Below are positions 7,130 through 15,651 of a DNA stretch of 64,000 bases, one piece after another. The DNA is taken from contig JAHWKU010000005.1 in assembly GCA_019347715.1 (NCBI GenBank), positions 1 to 64,000 on the forward strand, read 5' to 3'. The notes below the pieces were generated by a model. That model did no database searches and was not told the origin of the DNA. It saw only the letters and a program-made list of their open reading frames with translations. Origin of the DNA: Actinomycetota bacterium. GTDB taxonomy: Bacteria; Actinomycetota; CADDZG01; JAHWKV01. Both the position numbers and the translations under genes were made by a program. Numbering within the stretch: position 1 is the stretch's first letter; every line of letters begins with the position of its first letter.

Positions 7130-8647
7130 CTAGGGCTCCAGCAGCGGAGTCTCTGTCAGAGCCTCCATGGAGCCGGCTCTCTCGAATTGTGTTCGATAGA
7201 GCTCGCCGTAGTTGCGGAGAGTGTCGTGGAACATGTGAGCATCCTGGGTAACGACTCCGATCGCTGCCCGCAGGCTGTCAAGAGTCAGGTCCTTTACGTC
7301 ATGACCATCGATGCGCACGATCCCGCTCGAAGCTTCGTACAGCCGGGGCACCAGTGAAGTGATGGTTGTCTTTCCCGCCCCCGAGGGCCCAACCAGAGCC
7401 ACCATCTTTCCCGGCTCGATCGTGAAGGAGACGTCCTGCAACACCCAGTTCTGCTCGCGGTCGCGCAACTCGACACCTGGAAGCTCGAGAGACTGGATAG
7501 ACACTTCCGAAGCCGTCGGGTATCGAAACGAGACTTGCTCGAATTCCACCTTCCCCTTGGCGCCGACCAGTTCGTGGGCCTCCGGCCTGTCGGCGATGCC
7601 GATCGGGAAGTCGAGAACTTCGAAAACTCGATCGAATGCGACCATCCCGGTCATGACTTCCACGCGGATGTTCGAGAGCATCGTGATCGGCATGTAGATC
7701 CCGGTGAGGTATTGGATCATCGCAACGAGCGTCCCCACTTCCATCCCACCGGTGATGACGGAGATACCCCCCCTCCAATAAATGAGAACGGTTCCAACTC
7801 CGGCCACGAGGCTGAAGAGAACGAAGAAAATCCGTCCGTATACGGCGGACTTGATACCTATATCTCTGACATGTCCCGCCTTTTCAGAGAACTGATCCCT
7901 CTCGAGATGGCGGTTGCCGAACAGCTTCACCAGAAGGGCCCCGCCCACCTGGAATCGCTCTGTCATCTGCGAAGCCATCGCAGCGTTGTTCTCCTGCTGT
8001 CGTCTCATGAGCCGCTGCAGGACCTTGCCCATCCGTCGCGTCGGAGCGAGAAATATAGGCACCAGTGCAAGTGCCATCAGGGTGATCTTCCACGTTTCGC
8101 CTGACTCACTGCGCAGCGTAAGCATTCCCAAGATGGCAAACCCAATGCTCAAAACGATGCCAACCAGGCCCGTAGTAGTTTCGGTGATCGCCCGTTGAGC
8201 ACCTACAACGTCGCTTTGGAGCCTGCTGATCAGGGCACCAGTTTGCGTTCTCGTGAAAAAAGCGATGGGCATGCTCTGAACGTAGTCGAACAGCGCGACC
8301 CTGAGATCGAAGATGATCCCCTCGCCGATACGGGATCCAGCCCAGCGAGAAAGGACCTGCGTTCCAGATCTCGCCACCAGGACGCCCAGAAACAGCAGAC
8401 ACAGGATCCCGAGCAACCTGGTGTTCTGTTTCAGGATAGCGTCGTTGATGATCCACTCGGAGAACTTGGGGGGCATGAAGGTCTCCAGGAACGATGCAAT
8501 CACGGTGAAAAACAGGAGAACCACCAAGGTCCCCCGATAGGGCTTCGCGAACTTGAGGACTCTCTTGAGCAGTCCCGGCGAGAGCTGGACCTGATCGAGG
8601 TCGAGACCCTGTCCTCGAAGCATCCTCCATTGCCCATGCATACCCAT
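7130..8647 (-). pseudogene. ABC exporter subunit missing the second half of its ATPase domain
   Basis: The first 390 residues form a normal ABC exporter membrane domain. The ATPase domain then starts correctly with Walker A GPSGAGKT and Q-loop VVTQDAHMFHDTLR. The next residues, YGELYRTQFERAG, match the very end of such proteins, where LYxELYRTQF is common. About 130 residues are absent: the signature LSGGQ, Walker B, D-loop and H-loop. The frame stays open across the junction (about 7207-7216), so this looks like an in-frame internal deletion, real or an assembly collapse. I place the start at the ATG at 8647, 61 bases from the divergent gene. The product could not hydrolyse ATP by itself, so I call it a likely pseudogene. 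Confidence 0.75.
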
Positions 8648-8708
8648 GGCCAAGAGATTAACCGTCACTTCCAGGGACGACGTTAACGAGTGATATAAAC
8701 ACCCCCCC

Positions 8709-10106
8709 ATGAGAAGCAAGGCCAGGCCCATTCGAGTTGCCGCCGCGGTGATTTCTGGCTTCTTGATGTCCTTTAGCCTCTACTTGCCGGCTTCCGCTGC
8801 CGCCGCCCTGTCTGCCGAGATCGTTTCCTGGCAGGTGATCGGCTTGGATTCGAATGCGCCCACCACTTCGCCTCCTGAGTTGTTCTTGGTCCAAGCCCAG
8901 GTCACCAACACCGGAGATGCTCCCGCGACCAACGTGACGTCAACTCTAGCCATGAGCGCTCCGGACTGCGGCGGTGCCCCCTGCATAACGTTGGTCTCTT
9001 CGGACACGTACACGATTGGGACCTTGGCCCCTGGGGAAACTCGGGATGCATTTTGGACGGTGAGGATAGCCAGAACTGCGGCAGCATTCGACACCACGAC
9101 TCCCATCACGGTCACGGCCCAGGCAGATGGTCTGGCCCCGGTCACCGCGACACAGGTATCCCGCGATCCCCCTCCGTGCGGCACCGATCCAACCGGAGCA
9201 AGCGTGCTTTACGTCGAGAGACTGATCTCACAAGCAAGAAACAACGTTCTTTCCTACTCGGTGTCTCCCGGGGTTCAGCTGCCCGACGGCACATGGGAAG
9301 TAGTACAGGGTTCCGATTTCACCGTAACGGTGCTGGCTCACACCGCCACCATGTATTCCGAAGTTTCGGTTCCGGCAGTAGTGGACCCCTCCGGAGCGAT
9401 CACTCCTCAATCGGTGAACTTCACTTACACCCTGGGAACTGCCGCCGACGATGACATTTACACGCTCGACGCAGGGGGAGAGGTGACGGCTCAGTACAAC
9501 TATCGTGCGGCCTCGCTCGGTGAGGTGAGGCTGTCCCAGCTCATATACGACTGTTCGGGAAACTCCTTTCACTACAACTCCGACTACCTCGTGGACTTCA
9601 TCACCATTCGCGTCGTTGCTCCACCGGTCCTGAATCCTCAGCCGAACGTAACCTTGGCGAAGAGTTCCTCACCTTCAGGGACAGTCGATCCTGGAGAGAA
9701 GGTGACGTTCACGATCTCGTACGCCAACAGCGGCCCAGGACCTGCAACCGGTTTCGTGATCAGCGACCAGATCGACCCCAATCTGACCAACATCCAACCG
9801 GGGCCCGGCGGCGCCTACGACCCTTCCGCTCGAACGATCACGTGGATGATCGGCACGATCGATTCGCAAAGCTCGGGATCGGTATCGTTCACGGCGTTCG
9901 TAGATGACTTCGCGGGAGGAAAGACCATCCGAAATGTTGCAGTGGCCGACGCCGATCAGTTCGACCCGGTCTCATCCGGAGAAGTGCTGCTGACGATTCC
10001 GGAGACCACGCCGGTGACCGGAGTTCCCGCCGGCCTGCTGGCAATCTTGGGTTGGAGCCTGATCGGGGCCGGAGAGGTCCTTAACAGGAAGAGGATTGGG
10101 ATCTAG
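8709..10106 (+). CDS. DUF11-type secreted surface protein with C-terminal anchor
   Basis: A 465-residue exported protein. It has a signal peptide (to about residue 31, ending PASAAAA), repeated beta-sandwich segments rich in Thr, Ser and Val, and a DUF11-type repeat near 315-425 (VTFTISYANSGPGPAT, then LTNIQPGPG). A C-terminal helix AGLLAILGWSLIGAGEVL is followed by a short basic tail. That layout (repeats, helix, positive tail) fits a wall or membrane surface protein; no LPxTG is present, though VTGVPAG sits just before the helix. Four Cys in the middle (APDCGGAPC, PPPCG, IYDCSG) could make disulfides. It is divergent from the truncated ABC gene and overlaps the convergent MaoC gene by 4 bases. 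Adhesion is a guess. Confidence 0.75.
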   Translation: MRSKARPIRVAAAVISGFLMSFSLYLPASAAAALSAEIVSWQVIGLDSNAPTTSPPELFLVQAQVTNTGDAPATNVTSTLAMSAPDCGGAPCITLVSSDTYTIGTLAPGETRDAFWTVRIARTAAAFDTTTPITVTAQADGLAPVTATQVSRDPPPCGTDPTGASVLYVERLISQARNNVLSYSVSPGVQLPDGTWEVVQGSDFTVTVLAHTATMYSEVSVPAVVDPSGAITPQSVNFTYTLGTAADDDIYTLDAGGEVTAQYNYRAASLGEVRLSQLIYDCSGNSFHYNSDYLVDFITIRVVAPPVLNPQPNVTLAKSSSPSGTVDPGEKVTFTISYANSGPGPATGFVISDQIDPNLTNIQPGPGGAYDPSARTITWMIGTIDSQSSGSVSFTAFVDDFAGGKTIRNVAVADADQFDPVSSGEVLLTIPETTPVTGVPAGLLAILGWSLIGAGEVLNRKRIGI

Positions 10107-11872: not shown

Positions 11873-12301
11873 ATGGCTAAATCGAAGACCCCTCAGCAGG
11901 AAACCGGGAAACCCGATCGCCCGCTTGATGCAGAAAAGCTGCTTCGGCTGGCAAGCCTGACCAAGGCCGTGCTCGACGAAGCAAGATCGATGGATCCGGA
12001 AAAGACTCCATCTGAAGAGATGGCCGCGCTATACAGAAGGGTTTCGGGACAGCTCGCCCAATCGATCCCGAACGCGCTTGCCGACGAGCTGGAGGAGCTG
12101 GATCTCGACGCTGCTTTCCCCGACGGAGCCTCACCTCAAGAAATCAGACTCGCGTACTCGGGGTTGATCGGCTGGCTGCAGGGTCTCTTCCAGGGGCTTT
12201 CGGCAGCGATGCAGGTTCAGAGCCTTACGAAAGAACTGGATCAGCTCGAAAAAGGCGGAGACTCCCAGGAGGACCAGGAAGCCAAGGGGCGGTACCTGTA
12301 G
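11873..12301 (+). CDS. bpa: Bacterial proteasome activator (Bpa/PafE family)
   Basis: A 142-residue mostly helical protein. The segment IRLAYSGLIGWLQGLFQGLS (about 91-110) matches the most conserved stretch of the Bpa/PafE (DUF2587) family. The C-terminus is GRYL, close to the GQYL tail with penultimate Tyr by which Mpa and Bpa dock on the 20S proteasome. The family forms dodecameric rings that open the proteasome gate without ATP to degrade unfolded or special clients. The start is the ATG at 11873 (MAKSKTP); an in-frame ATG at 11843 would overlap the divergent thiolase region. Its stop abuts the ATG of the AAA gene, so the three genes 11873-15651 form one operon. The proteasome genes themselves are not in this window. 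Confidence 0.85.
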   Translation: MAKSKTPQQETGKPDRPLDAEKLLRLASLTKAVLDEARSMDPEKTPSEEMAALYRRVSGQLAQSIPNALADELEELDLDAAFPDGASPQEIRLAYSGLIGWLQGLFQGLSAAMQVQSLTKELDQLEKGGDSQEDQEAKGRYL

Positions 12302-13708
12302 ATGTCACGAACGGCCAAACCGGCCACCGTCGGTCAGCTCCGTTCTTCCGGCTACCAGGACATGACGGTGAAGCAGGAGCTAAGAAAGAACCTGCTGAAA
12401 AAGTTAAACGCCGGGGAGAGGCTGTTCGATTCCATCATCGGCTACGAAGAATCGGTAATACCCACTCTCGAAAGAGGGATCCTCGCAGGCCATGACCTGA
12501 TCCTTCTCGGCGAGAGGGGCCAAGCAAAGACCAGGCTCATACGGCATCTCGTTGACCTCCTTGACGACGAGATCCCCGTGATGACCGGATGCGAGATCAA
12601 CGACCACCCGTACCGTCCCATCTGCGGAGCGTGCCGGGCGCTTATCGTCGAGAGGGGCGAAGAGGCACCCATCGAATGGATAGGCCGCGACTCGAGGTTC
12701 GCAGAAAAACTCGCAACTCCCGACACTTCGGTGGCCGACCTCATCGGGGACGTCGATCCCATGAGGATCGCCGAGGGGCGCTATCTCGGTGACGAGCTGA
12801 CCATCCACCACGGGCTTATTCCGAGAACGAACCGCGGTGTCTTTTCGATCAACGAGCTGCCCGACCTCCCGGAGAGGATTCAGGTTTCCCTTCTTAACAT
12901 CCTCGAGGAGCGCGACGTTCAGATTCGTGGATACAAGATCCGGCTTCCTTTGGATTTGATGCTGGTGGCAAGCGCCAACCCCGAGGACTATACCCACCGC
13001 GGAAGGATCATCTCCCCGTTAAAGGATCGCTTTGGTACCCAGGTCCGCACGCACTATCCGTACGAGATCACAGAAGAGATCGCGATCATGGATCAAGAGG
13101 CGTCGGCTCCCCCCGAAGACATTCAGGTGTACGTGCCCCTTTTTCTAAAGGAGGTGATCGCTGAGTTCACGCAGCAACTTCGGCTGTCGCCTCAAGTGAA
13201 CCAGCGAAGCGGCGTCTCGGTTCGCTACTCGATCGGCAACCTCGAGACCATGGTTGCCAGCGCCGTGCGACGGTCGGCGATTGCTGGTGAAAGCAGGGCC
13301 ATCCCACGGCCGGTCGACCTATGGGCTTTCGTCGAATCGTCTATGGGCCGGGTCGAATTCGAGACGATGGAAGAAGGAAGAGAGGACTGGATCCTCGAGA
13401 ATTCTCTGAAGCGATCGATGGCAGAGGTATATCGCCGAAGGCTCGGGGGCGAAAACCTGGGTCCCCTCATCCAAATGTTCGATGAGGGCTTGAACGTAGA
13501 AACCACGGAAAGCCTTGGCGCCGCCAACTTCATGGCTCAATTCCCTAACGTGCCGGGGCTCGGCAGAATCATGCAGCGCCTCGACCTCACCGAGGAGAGC
13601 GAGGAGGCGGCAGCCAGCGCATTGGAGTTCGCGCTCGAAGGGCTGCACCTGATGAAGCGGCTGAACAAAGATGCCACAGGCCGCGGCTGGAGGTTCGGAG
13701 CTAAGTAG
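12302..13708 (+). CDS. MoxR/Mg-chelatase-like AAA+ ATPase
   Basis: A 468-residue AAA+ protein: Walker A GERGQAKT (70-77), a Walker-B-like segment FSINELPDLP (181-190) with Asn in place of the usual Asp but the Glu kept, and sensor-1 ASANPEDYTHRG (224-234). The NEL form is, as far as I recall, usual in the actinobacterial Mg-chelatase-like group that includes mycobacterial Rv0958. Cys97, Cys108 and Cys111 with His102 could bind zinc. Such ATPases remodel or insert cofactors into target proteins with a VWA partner, which is encoded next. The ATG follows the bpa stop with no gap, and the stop TAG overlaps the next GTG. It is probably not a chlorophyll enzyme: no BchH- or BchD-like gene is near. 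Confidence 0.88.
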   Translation: MSRTAKPATVGQLRSSGYQDMTVKQELRKNLLKKLNAGERLFDSIIGYEESVIPTLERGILAGHDLILLGERGQAKTRLIRHLVDLLDDEIPVMTGCEINDHPYRPICGACRALIVERGEEAPIEWIGRDSRFAEKLATPDTSVADLIGDVDPMRIAEGRYLGDELTIHHGLIPRTNRGVFSINELPDLPERIQVSLLNILEERDVQIRGYKIRLPLDLMLVASANPEDYTHRGRIISPLKDRFGTQVRTHYPYEITEEIAIMDQEASAPPEDIQVYVPLFLKEVIAEFTQQLRLSPQVNQRSGVSVRYSIGNLETMVASAVRRSAIAGESRAIPRPVDLWAFVESSMGRVEFETMEEGREDWILENSLKRSMAEVYRRRLGGENLGPLIQMFDEGLNVETTESLGAANFMAQFPNVPGLGRIMQRLDLTEESEEAAASALEFALEGLHLMKRLNKDATGRGWRFGAK

Positions 13709-15651
13709 TGAAGTCTCGATACTCCCGGTGGGACGGCTCGCAGGATCCTTTTTCGGGCGAACTCGACATCGGCGAAGTCATCGACGAGATCTCCGACGAT
13801 CTGCTGGCCGGGATGTCTCCCAACTCTGCTCTGCGCCGCCTGATGCAGCAAGGGATGAGAGGGATGCAGGGCCTGCAAGACCTTCTCGAACGTATCCGTC
13901 AAAACCGCAGAAGGATGGCTCAGGCTTTGAACCTCGAGGGCCCCCTTTCGGAGATAAAGGAAAAGCTCGACGAGATTCTCTCTTTGGAACGCGGGGCGTT
14001 GTCCGAAATGGATTCAGAGGACGCTCGAATGCGGGAAACCAATCTCGACATGCTCCCAGCGGAACCGGCACAGATGGTGAAAGAGCTATCGAACTATCGA
14101 TTCGTTTCGCCGGAGGCACAGGAGAAGTTCGACCAGCTCGTGAAGGAGATTCAACAGCAGGTCCTCGACTCGATGTTCGGTCAGATGGCCGGGGCCATGC
14201 AGAACATGACCCCCGATCAAGTTGCCCGCATGCGGGAGATGCTCGCCGAGCTAAACGAAATGATTCGGAAGAAAGAGGCGGGCGAGCCGTACGACTTTCC
14301 CGGTTTCATGGCCCGCTATGGTGATTTCTTTCCCGAAAATCCTCGCACCCTGGAAGAACTTCTGGAAGCCCTTGGTCGTCGGATGGCTGCGATGAGCCGG
14401 TTACTCGCAAGCCTCAGTCCCGAACAGCGAAGAGAGCTCGAGGAGATGGCTCAGGCCGTGATGAACGATCTCGACATCGCATTCCAGATGGACCAGCTCA
14501 ACCAAGAGCTGAGAGACCTAATGCCCCATTTACCTTGGGATCAGCAGACCTTCGGCTGGGGCGAAGAGCCGATGGAACTATCGGAGGCACTCGGAGCCAT
14601 CGAGCAGATGAGCGATTTCGAAGAGCTGGAGCAATCGCTTCAAGGTGACTATGCCGGAGCGTCCATCGACGACGTCGACGAGGAAAAACTGCGGAGGGCT
14701 CTCGACGAATCTGCGGTCCGCGACCTACGGCGCTTGAAGCAGGTGGAGAAAGCACTCGAGGACGCCGGAATGCTCGTCAATAACAAGGGGCAAATGGAAC
14801 TGACCGCACGGGGCGCAAGACGGATCGGAGAGAGAGCTCTGGTAAAGATGTTCGAAGAGCTCAAGAAAGAACGCACAGGTTCACATCAGTCGCGCGACGC
14901 CGGTGGTCTCATGGAACCAACCGGCGCAACTCTGCCCTGGAATTACGGAGACGTGGGGGAATTCGCGGTGCAAAAGACAGTCTTCAACGCCATCACCCGC
15001 GGGGAGCGCTCCCCCTCGCAAACCGGCGTCAAATTGAAGGCGGAAGACTTCGAGCTAATCGAGGCCGAGACCCGAACCCGAACCGCGACCGCGCTTCTTC
15101 TCGACCTCTCATTTTCAATGCCGCTAAGAGGTCATTGGATCCCGGCTAAGCGAATGGCTCTTGCCCTGCATGCGCTAATCGAAGGCAAGTATCCGCAGGA
15201 TTACCTCTACCTCATAGGTTTCAGCAATCTCGCCCGCAAACTCGAACCCCGGGATCTGACCGCTACCGGCCCCCTCGATCGCGTATACGGCACGAACATG
15301 GAGCACGCCTTCTTACTGGCGCGCCGTCTGCTCTCCGAACATCCGAGGGCAACCAAGCAGGTCATCATGGTGACCGACGGCGAACCGACGGCTCACTTGA
15401 CCAACGATCCATACGAACCGGCCTTCTTCTCATGGCCGCCGGTTCCCGAAACCATCCATAAGACTCTTGCCGAAGCGATCCGGCTGGCGAGCGCAGACGT
15501 GACCCTAAATATCTTCATGCTCGAAGACTCACCGGGCCTGGTGAGATTCATGGAACAGCTGGCGCAGCGAACCGGGGGACGAATCTTTCAGATGACCGAC
15601 AACGAGGTCGGCCGTTACATCATCCGCGACTACGTCCGCCGCCACCGCTAG
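13708..15651 (+). CDS. VWA-domain partner of the AAA+ ATPase
   Basis: A 647-residue protein starting at a GTG that overlaps the previous stop (TAGTG). Residues 1-440 are charged and helical, rich in Met, Gln, Glu and Asp (for example GMRGMQGLQDLLERIRQ). The C-terminal third is a von Willebrand A domain with MIDAS motif LLDLSFSMP (about 464-472) and MVTDGEPTAH (about 553). MoxR- or ChlI-type ATPases act with such VWA proteins as substrate adaptors, as in Rv0958/Rv0959-type pairs. The end overlaps the convergent acyl-CoA dehydrogenase gene by 32 bases. With bpa upstream, a role in presenting folded or damaged proteins to the proteasome is possible but unproved. Confidence 0.87.
   Translation: MKSRYSRWDGSQDPFSGELDIGEVIDEISDDLLAGMSPNSALRRLMQQGMRGMQGLQDLLERIRQNRRRMAQALNLEGPLSEIKEKLDEILSLERGALSEMDSEDARMRETNLDMLPAEPAQMVKELSNYRFVSPEAQEKFDQLVKEIQQQVLDSMFGQMAGAMQNMTPDQVARMREMLAELNEMIRKKEAGEPYDFPGFMARYGDFFPENPRTLEELLEALGRRMAAMSRLLASLSPEQRRELEEMAQAVMNDLDIAFQMDQLNQELRDLMPHLPWDQQTFGWGEEPMELSEALGAIEQMSDFEELEQSLQGDYAGASIDDVDEEKLRRALDESAVRDLRRLKQVEKALEDAGMLVNNKGQMELTARGARRIGERALVKMFEELKKERTGSHQSRDAGGLMEPTGATLPWNYGDVGEFAVQKTVFNAITRGERSPSQTGVKLKAEDFELIEAETRTRTATALLLDLSFSMPLRGHWIPAKRMALALHALIEGKYPQDYLYLIGFSNLARKLEPRDLTATGPLDRVYGTNMEHAFLLARRLLSEHPRATKQVIMVTDGEPTAHLTNDPYEPAFFSWPPVPETIHKTLAEAIRLASADVTLNIFMLEDSPGLVRFMEQLAQRTGGRIFQMTDNEVGRYIIRDYVRRHR

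Follow-up and report, generated by a model that had tools for sequence, protein, structure and literature searches.

A compact cluster of three genes, encoding a bacterial proteasome activator (Bpa), an AAA+ ATPase and a protein with a von Willebrand factor A (VWA) domain, was identified in an Actinomycetota bacterium (assembly GCA_019347715.1). The window, that is the whole stretch of DNA which was analysed, comprised positions 1 to 64,000 of the forward strand of contig JAHWKU010000005.1. The genes of the cluster, together with the codons for the docking tail of the first product, are as follows.

11873 to 12301, + strand: bpa, divergent Bpa (PF10759), 142 amino acids, from ATG at 11873 to TAG at 12301; tail GRYL; Q107 and Q114 replace H131 and F138 of Mycobacterium tuberculosis Bpa.
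12287 to 12301, + strand: codons of the Bpa docking tail (G-R-Y-L and stop); Tyr-Leu retained in 7/7 Bpas of the order.
12302 to 13708, + strand: gene of a ChlI/MoxR-like AAA+ ATPase, 468 amino acids; Walker A GERGQAKT, Walker B Asn-Glu (N184 and E185), sensor 1 N226.
13708 to 15651, + strand: gene of the VWA protein, 647 amino acids; long, mostly helical N-terminal part and C-terminal VWA domain with a metal-ion-dependent adhesion site (MIDAS) of DLSFS, GT and TDG.

The ATG of the AAA+ gene (12302) stands at the very next base after the stop codon of bpa (gap 0), and the last G (13708) of the AAA+ stop codon TAG (13706-13708) doubles as the first base of the GTG start of the VWA gene, in agreement with the first-pass annotation, in which the three genes had been said to abut or overlap. 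Order, strand and spacing were confirmed, and the trio is one tight operon, which is presumably co-transcribed.

Among 198 sampled Actinomycetota genomes, 82 had Bpa, 63 had the AAA+ and 58 had both. Gene coordinates and profile search revealed the bpa-AAA-VWA adjacency in four of the 58 (the window genome, G092, G178 and G157), spanning both families of the order, and the arrangement was therefore not unique to the genome in which it had been noticed. The three further genomes have the same gene order and strand as the window, with gaps between bpa and the AAA+ gene of 0 to about 56 bp across the operons. Eight genomes of the order were surveyed: four carried the operon, G124 had the genes apart, G198 and G199 had Bpa only, and G103 had neither. 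In G198 and G199, whose assemblies are incomplete (64% and 81%), Bpa adjoins an ABC gene and no AAA+ was present. No additional adjacency was observed among 24 genomes of the class.

The trio proteins are about 45-75% identical between the operon-bearing genomes. Of the 57 open reading frames (ORFs) of the window, only the three operon genes, an ABC gene transcribed divergently and, in G157, two further ORFs recurred within about 19 kb; the ABC gene is also present in other genomes of the window genome's family. Selection on the trio is indicated, since it was kept together at this level of identity while nearly all of the flanks differ. Chance adjacency was excluded, because the order has three more genomes with the same arrangement and changed flanks. 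The four genomes share ancestry, so they do not represent four independent events, and the operon is a conserved gene context of a narrow lineage of uncultured actinobacteria for a divergent Bpa.

The product of the first gene had been described as Bpa with GRYL as the docking form of its tail. It matched PF10759 with 50.3 bits (cut-off 29.5), the solved M. tuberculosis Bpa chains matched it over residues 10-128 (E ~2e-9), the core helix W-L-x-G-L-F was retained, and the C-terminus reads A-K-G-R-Y-L. The family and the Tyr-Leu tail thus stood, with the correction that the protein belongs to a divergent clade and is not an ordinary orthologue. A single-chain AlphaFold model (3 sequences) gave four helices with low confidence (mean predicted local distance difference test score 68) and matched no solved Bpa. 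A tree of 87 Bpas placed the seven from the order, four operonic and three non-operonic, in a single clade (support 99/95), which was sister to a divergent group of families f47 and f51 and distant from the canonical family; the deep branching order of this tree is unsure because of few columns and long branches. A second Bpa, placed in the canonical part of the tree, exists in G092 and G178, and such a canonical-type copy beside the operonic one is what would be expected for specialisation.

The seven Bpas of the clade end in GRYL (window), GQYL (G092 and G178) or EGYL (G124, G157, G198 and G199). In M. tuberculosis Bpa, H131, F138 and R145 bind substrate (PMC11953334). The corresponding positions are Q, Q and a residue other than R in 7/7 clade members (Q, Q and E in the window), while the 70 canonical Bpas scored have H in 58, F in 53 and R in 55; Q at position 131 occurs also in 11 of the 70, so the three positions are not strictly defining. 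The clade keeps the docking end and has its client surface altered.

These replacements on the inner surface, the divergent sequence and the EGYL which takes the place of GQYL in some tails of the clade could be read as signs that the operonic Bpa gave up the proteasome and now serves the AAA/VWA pair as a ring-shaped adaptor or co-chaperone. Such a change of role is very unlikely, as Tyr-Leu was found at the end of all seven proteins, the Gln of GQYL is reported to be dispensable (PMC12288473), and R26 and K52 of PrcA are conserved.

In family f44, two near-alike and strongly divergent Bpas (L081 and L082) were encountered, with the usual tail missing in the frame read and a TAG inside the matched stretch. 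They are possibly decaying paralogues.

The AAA+ protein scored above the Pfam cut-offs for AAA_5 (36.7 bits, cut-off 22) and Mg_chelatase (30.6 bits, cut-off 20.3), with a weak match to Sigma54_activat, and its closest solved relative was ChlI (E 3.6e-11). The MoxR-type models AAA_3 (21.6 bits) and bpMoxR (23.9 bits) remained under their cut-offs of 27, so a true MoxR family member was rejected. The Walker A, Walker B and sensor motifs are invariant over 15 sequences. Walker B has Asn-Glu instead of Asp-Glu (window 12845-12880), and this is invariant in the 15 sequences, which come from several phyla. A Cys cluster (C97, C108 and C111; window 12590-12636), a possible metal site, lies between Walker A and Walker B and is found in many relatives, not in all.

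The relation to ChlI, and the fact that Rv0958 of M. tuberculosis has been discussed as magnesium chelatase (PMC10774309), raise the question of whether the AAA+ and VWA proteins are the I and D subunits of a magnesium or cobalt chelatase, next to which bpa would lie incidentally. This explanation is largely refuted and can hardly be right. The catalytic subunit CobN/ChlH was not found in the genome (2.43 Mb, 90% complete), which makes a metal chelatase very unlikely; the NCBIfam chelatase models (ChlI, ChlD and cobaltochelatase equivalogs) gave about 42-44 bits against cut-offs of 467-779, and the VWA protein is without the AAA domain of ChlD.

For the VWA protein, VWA_2 gave 23.7 bits, below the cut-off of 27, and the assignment was made from the intact MIDAS, complete and invariant in ten relatives, as well as from this sub-threshold match. 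Its single-chain AlphaFold model (10 sequences) was of low confidence, and the fold matches include Rpn10 and NorD. Both matches were taken as "VWA domain" only, and the reading as a proteasome receptor was rejected.

A VWA gene lies beside or near the AAA+ gene at most of the actinobacterial loci read. In family f9 (L170, L171, L173, L174 and L178), a conserved membrane protein, hydrophobic and small (about 123-139 amino acids), is encoded between the two genes. In families f47 and f51 (L166, L168 and L175), the same which hold the sister group of divergent Bpas, no VWA gene was found beside the AAA+ gene within the DNA read. Neither a recurring third partner of the AAA/VWA pair, the intervening genes being variable, nor a second proteasome-tailed protein around it was found in other families, by a clustering that was partly spoiled by antisense ORFs.

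The proteasome on which the first-pass annotation relied is encoded in the window genome. Contig C52 carries Arc/Mpa (ending GQYL), Dop, Pup (ending KGGQ), PrcB, PrcA, PafA, a DUF3866 gene and two PafBC-type WYL regulators; Dop and PafA are the two Pup_ligase-family genes of the genome, and PrcA retains R26 and K52, the pair by which the two terminal residues of the activator tail are held in M. tuberculosis (PMC11953334). The DUF3866 gene (L035:12244-13320) is situated between pafA and the PafBC-type genes of this locus.

The AAA+ was present in 61 of the 92 Actinomycetota genomes with Pup and in 2 of the 106 without it (odds ratio 102), and occurred in 21 families of the phylum, every one with Pup and Bpa; it tracks Pup far beyond the operon-bearing order. 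Among the genomes with Pup, Bpa was found in 57/61 with the AAA+ and 23/31 without it (p = 0.014, uncorrected for phylogeny).

The target of the AAA/VWA pair might be Bpa, or the interface of Bpa with the 20S, and not the clients; the pair would then assemble, release or gate the activator. How the association of activators with the 20S proteasome is regulated was called unknown in a 2025 review (PMC12288473), and AAA/VWA pairs typically activate a partner complex (PMC13036017, PMC9976466). In 24 of the 82 Bpa-bearing genomes, however, no AAA+ was found, which means that Bpa has no general need of it, and an action on the activator is improbable.

The explanation tentatively favoured here is that the trio is one transcription unit which links a divergent, specialised Bpa with a remodelling pair of AAA+ and VWA proteins. 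Cooperation between the two is suggested, and their functional coupling made plausible, by the tight spacing and the conservation in two families while the flanks decayed; by the complete Pup-proteasome locus with both PrcA residues; by the docking tail that was kept throughout the clade when the client residues were switched; by the canonical-type Bpa retained in two genomes; by the distribution of the AAA+ with Pup; and by related AAA/VWA pairs, which remodel target proteins and use the MIDAS for the target (PMC13036017, PMC9976466). By analogy with NorQ-NorD, the AAA+ ring and the VWA protein would act in the same manner: the MIDAS may grip a client complex, which would then be remodelled by ATP hydrolysis. 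The Bpa variant would dock on the 20S proteasome through its Tyr-Leu tail and could feed it, without Pup, the clients loosened by the pair or failing remodelling. Contact among Bpa, AAA+ and VWA protein, the hand-over of clients and the identity of the clients are what we infer from this arrangement. A stronger form, in which an AAA+/VWA machine and a specialised Bpa ring are physically joined and the ring receives what the machine dislodges, giving an ATP-fuelled and Pup-independent entry to the proteasome, is rather unlikely.

Several observations weigh against a coupling of Bpa with the pair. The other 54 of the 58 genomes with both genes have them far apart or on separate contigs, G124 has them apart in a genus that otherwise carries the operon, and the adjacency is confined to one order, in genomes of shared ancestry. 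The control gene MaoC of the same window also tracks Pup (43/92 vs 7/106, odds ratio 12), and since this unrelated gene associates too, ancestry and lifestyle account for part of the signal of the AAA+. Outside the actinobacteria, the AAA+ was found in phyla such as Chloroflexota, Planctomycetota and Bacteroidota, and Pup was found in 0 of 22 such AAA+ genomes, in which 20S subunits were not searched; the single Pup match of that set was from Nocardiopsis, an actinobacterium. The basic job of the AAA/VWA pair is thus independent of the Pup system. The three non-operonic clade members share the changed client-contact residues, as for the most part does the f47 sister group; the switch is therefore a trait of the clade, with no tie to the operon.

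A rival explanation is co-regulation without contact: the three proteins would serve one stress or protein quality-control response and be no more than co-transcribed in this order, with the pair remodelling a target of its own and Bpa acting by itself. The restriction of the adjacency to one order, with absence or loss inside it, the wide spread of the pair without a neighbouring Bpa and without Pup, and the partner-free function of canonical M. tuberculosis Bpa (PMC11953334) are all in its favour. It accounts less well for a trio that stayed intact when nearly all flanking genes changed, and for an association of the AAA+ with Pup that exceeds that of the control gene. Co-regulation is a serious possibility, if short of an even chance.

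The first-pass annotation had proposed a relay, in which the VWA protein selects clients, the AAA+ unfolds them and Bpa delivers them to the proteasome. This relay is unsupported, and by analogy its unfolding step is doubtful. No docking tail was present on either the AAA+ or the VWA protein, and the AAA+ occurs widely in genomes without Pup. In NorQD, the best-studied AAA/VWA pair, a finger of the VWA protein enters the pore of the AAA+, and the VWA linker is twisted and stretched on ATP hydrolysis; client unfolding is not reported as its action in the abstract of that work (PMC13036017). A loosening or opening of the target complex in the NorQD way would differ from the "unfold or extract" proposed at first.

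Through Bpa, proteins can enter the bacterial proteasome without ATP, and few of its clients are known. In the paper on its discovery, the neighbourhood of bpa was seemingly unconnected to proteasomal function (PMC4254994); the operon gives a concrete and testable partner. The open-access literature searched, which leaves out most subscription papers, gave no report of the operon or of Bpa being linked to an AAA/VWA pair; within it the operon context of the divergent Bpa is undescribed, as had been supposed at first. The co-distribution of the AAA+ with Pup over the Actinomycetota makes the idea testable in laboratory species such as M. smegmatis, and the Q/Q switch at the client-contact positions provides a specific handle on client choice. 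If such a physically joined machine and Bpa ring exist, the Rv0958-type AAA/VWA pairs found so widely would belong, as a hidden component, to the proteasome system of actinobacteria, also where they are encoded away from bpa.

The operon is bordered on both sides by opposite-strand genes of lipid catabolism, thiolase and MaoC upstream and two acyl-CoA dehydrogenases downstream. An ABC transporter gene (7130-8731, - strand) stops after the first half of the ATPase domain and continues into a luciferase-like (F420-type) ORF; its counterpart in relatives is about 640 amino acids long and lies beside bpa in divergent orientation, and the window gene is probably a truncated remnant or a rearrangement. 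An anti-phage defence system was rejected, as the PADLOC matches were weak and generic only.

Compared with known systems, ChlI of magnesium chelatase is the nearest solved structure to the AAA+, and the window pair departs from the magnesium chelatase ChlI/ChlD and cobaltochelatase in the missing ChlH/CobN, the scores far under the equivalog cut-offs and the VWA protein without an AAA domain. With the MoxR-vWA-beta-propeller ternary systems (bpMoxR, PF20030) it shares a MoxR-like AAA+ and a VWA protein encoded together, while the score is below the cut-off and a beta-propeller gene is not in the operon. The annotation of Rv0958/MSMEG_5512 of mycobacteria names a magnesium chelatase that has a sigma-54 interaction domain (PMC7092591). 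In annotation this resembles the Mg_chelatase and weak Sigma54_activat matches of the window AAA+, and the locus number is far from that of bpa (Rv3780). Rv0958 is presumably followed by a VWA gene, Rv0959. NorQ-NorD, CbbQ-CbbO and RavA-ViaA likewise consist of an AAA+ and a separate protein with helical N-terminus, C-terminal VWA domain and MIDAS, and the VWA domain of NorD was among the best fold matches of the modelled VWA protein; the window AAA+ differs in its sequence, which is nearer to that of ChlI than to that of MoxR, and in its Asn-Glu Walker B, and no respiratory or Rubisco target gene adjoins the pair. With Bpa/PafE (Rv3780) of M. tuberculosis, the window Bpa has in common the Pfam family, the core helix and the C-terminal Tyr-Leu docking tail, and it is set apart by its divergent clade, the replaced H131, F138 and R145, GRYL in place of GQYL, and the AAA/VWA pair that adjoins it.

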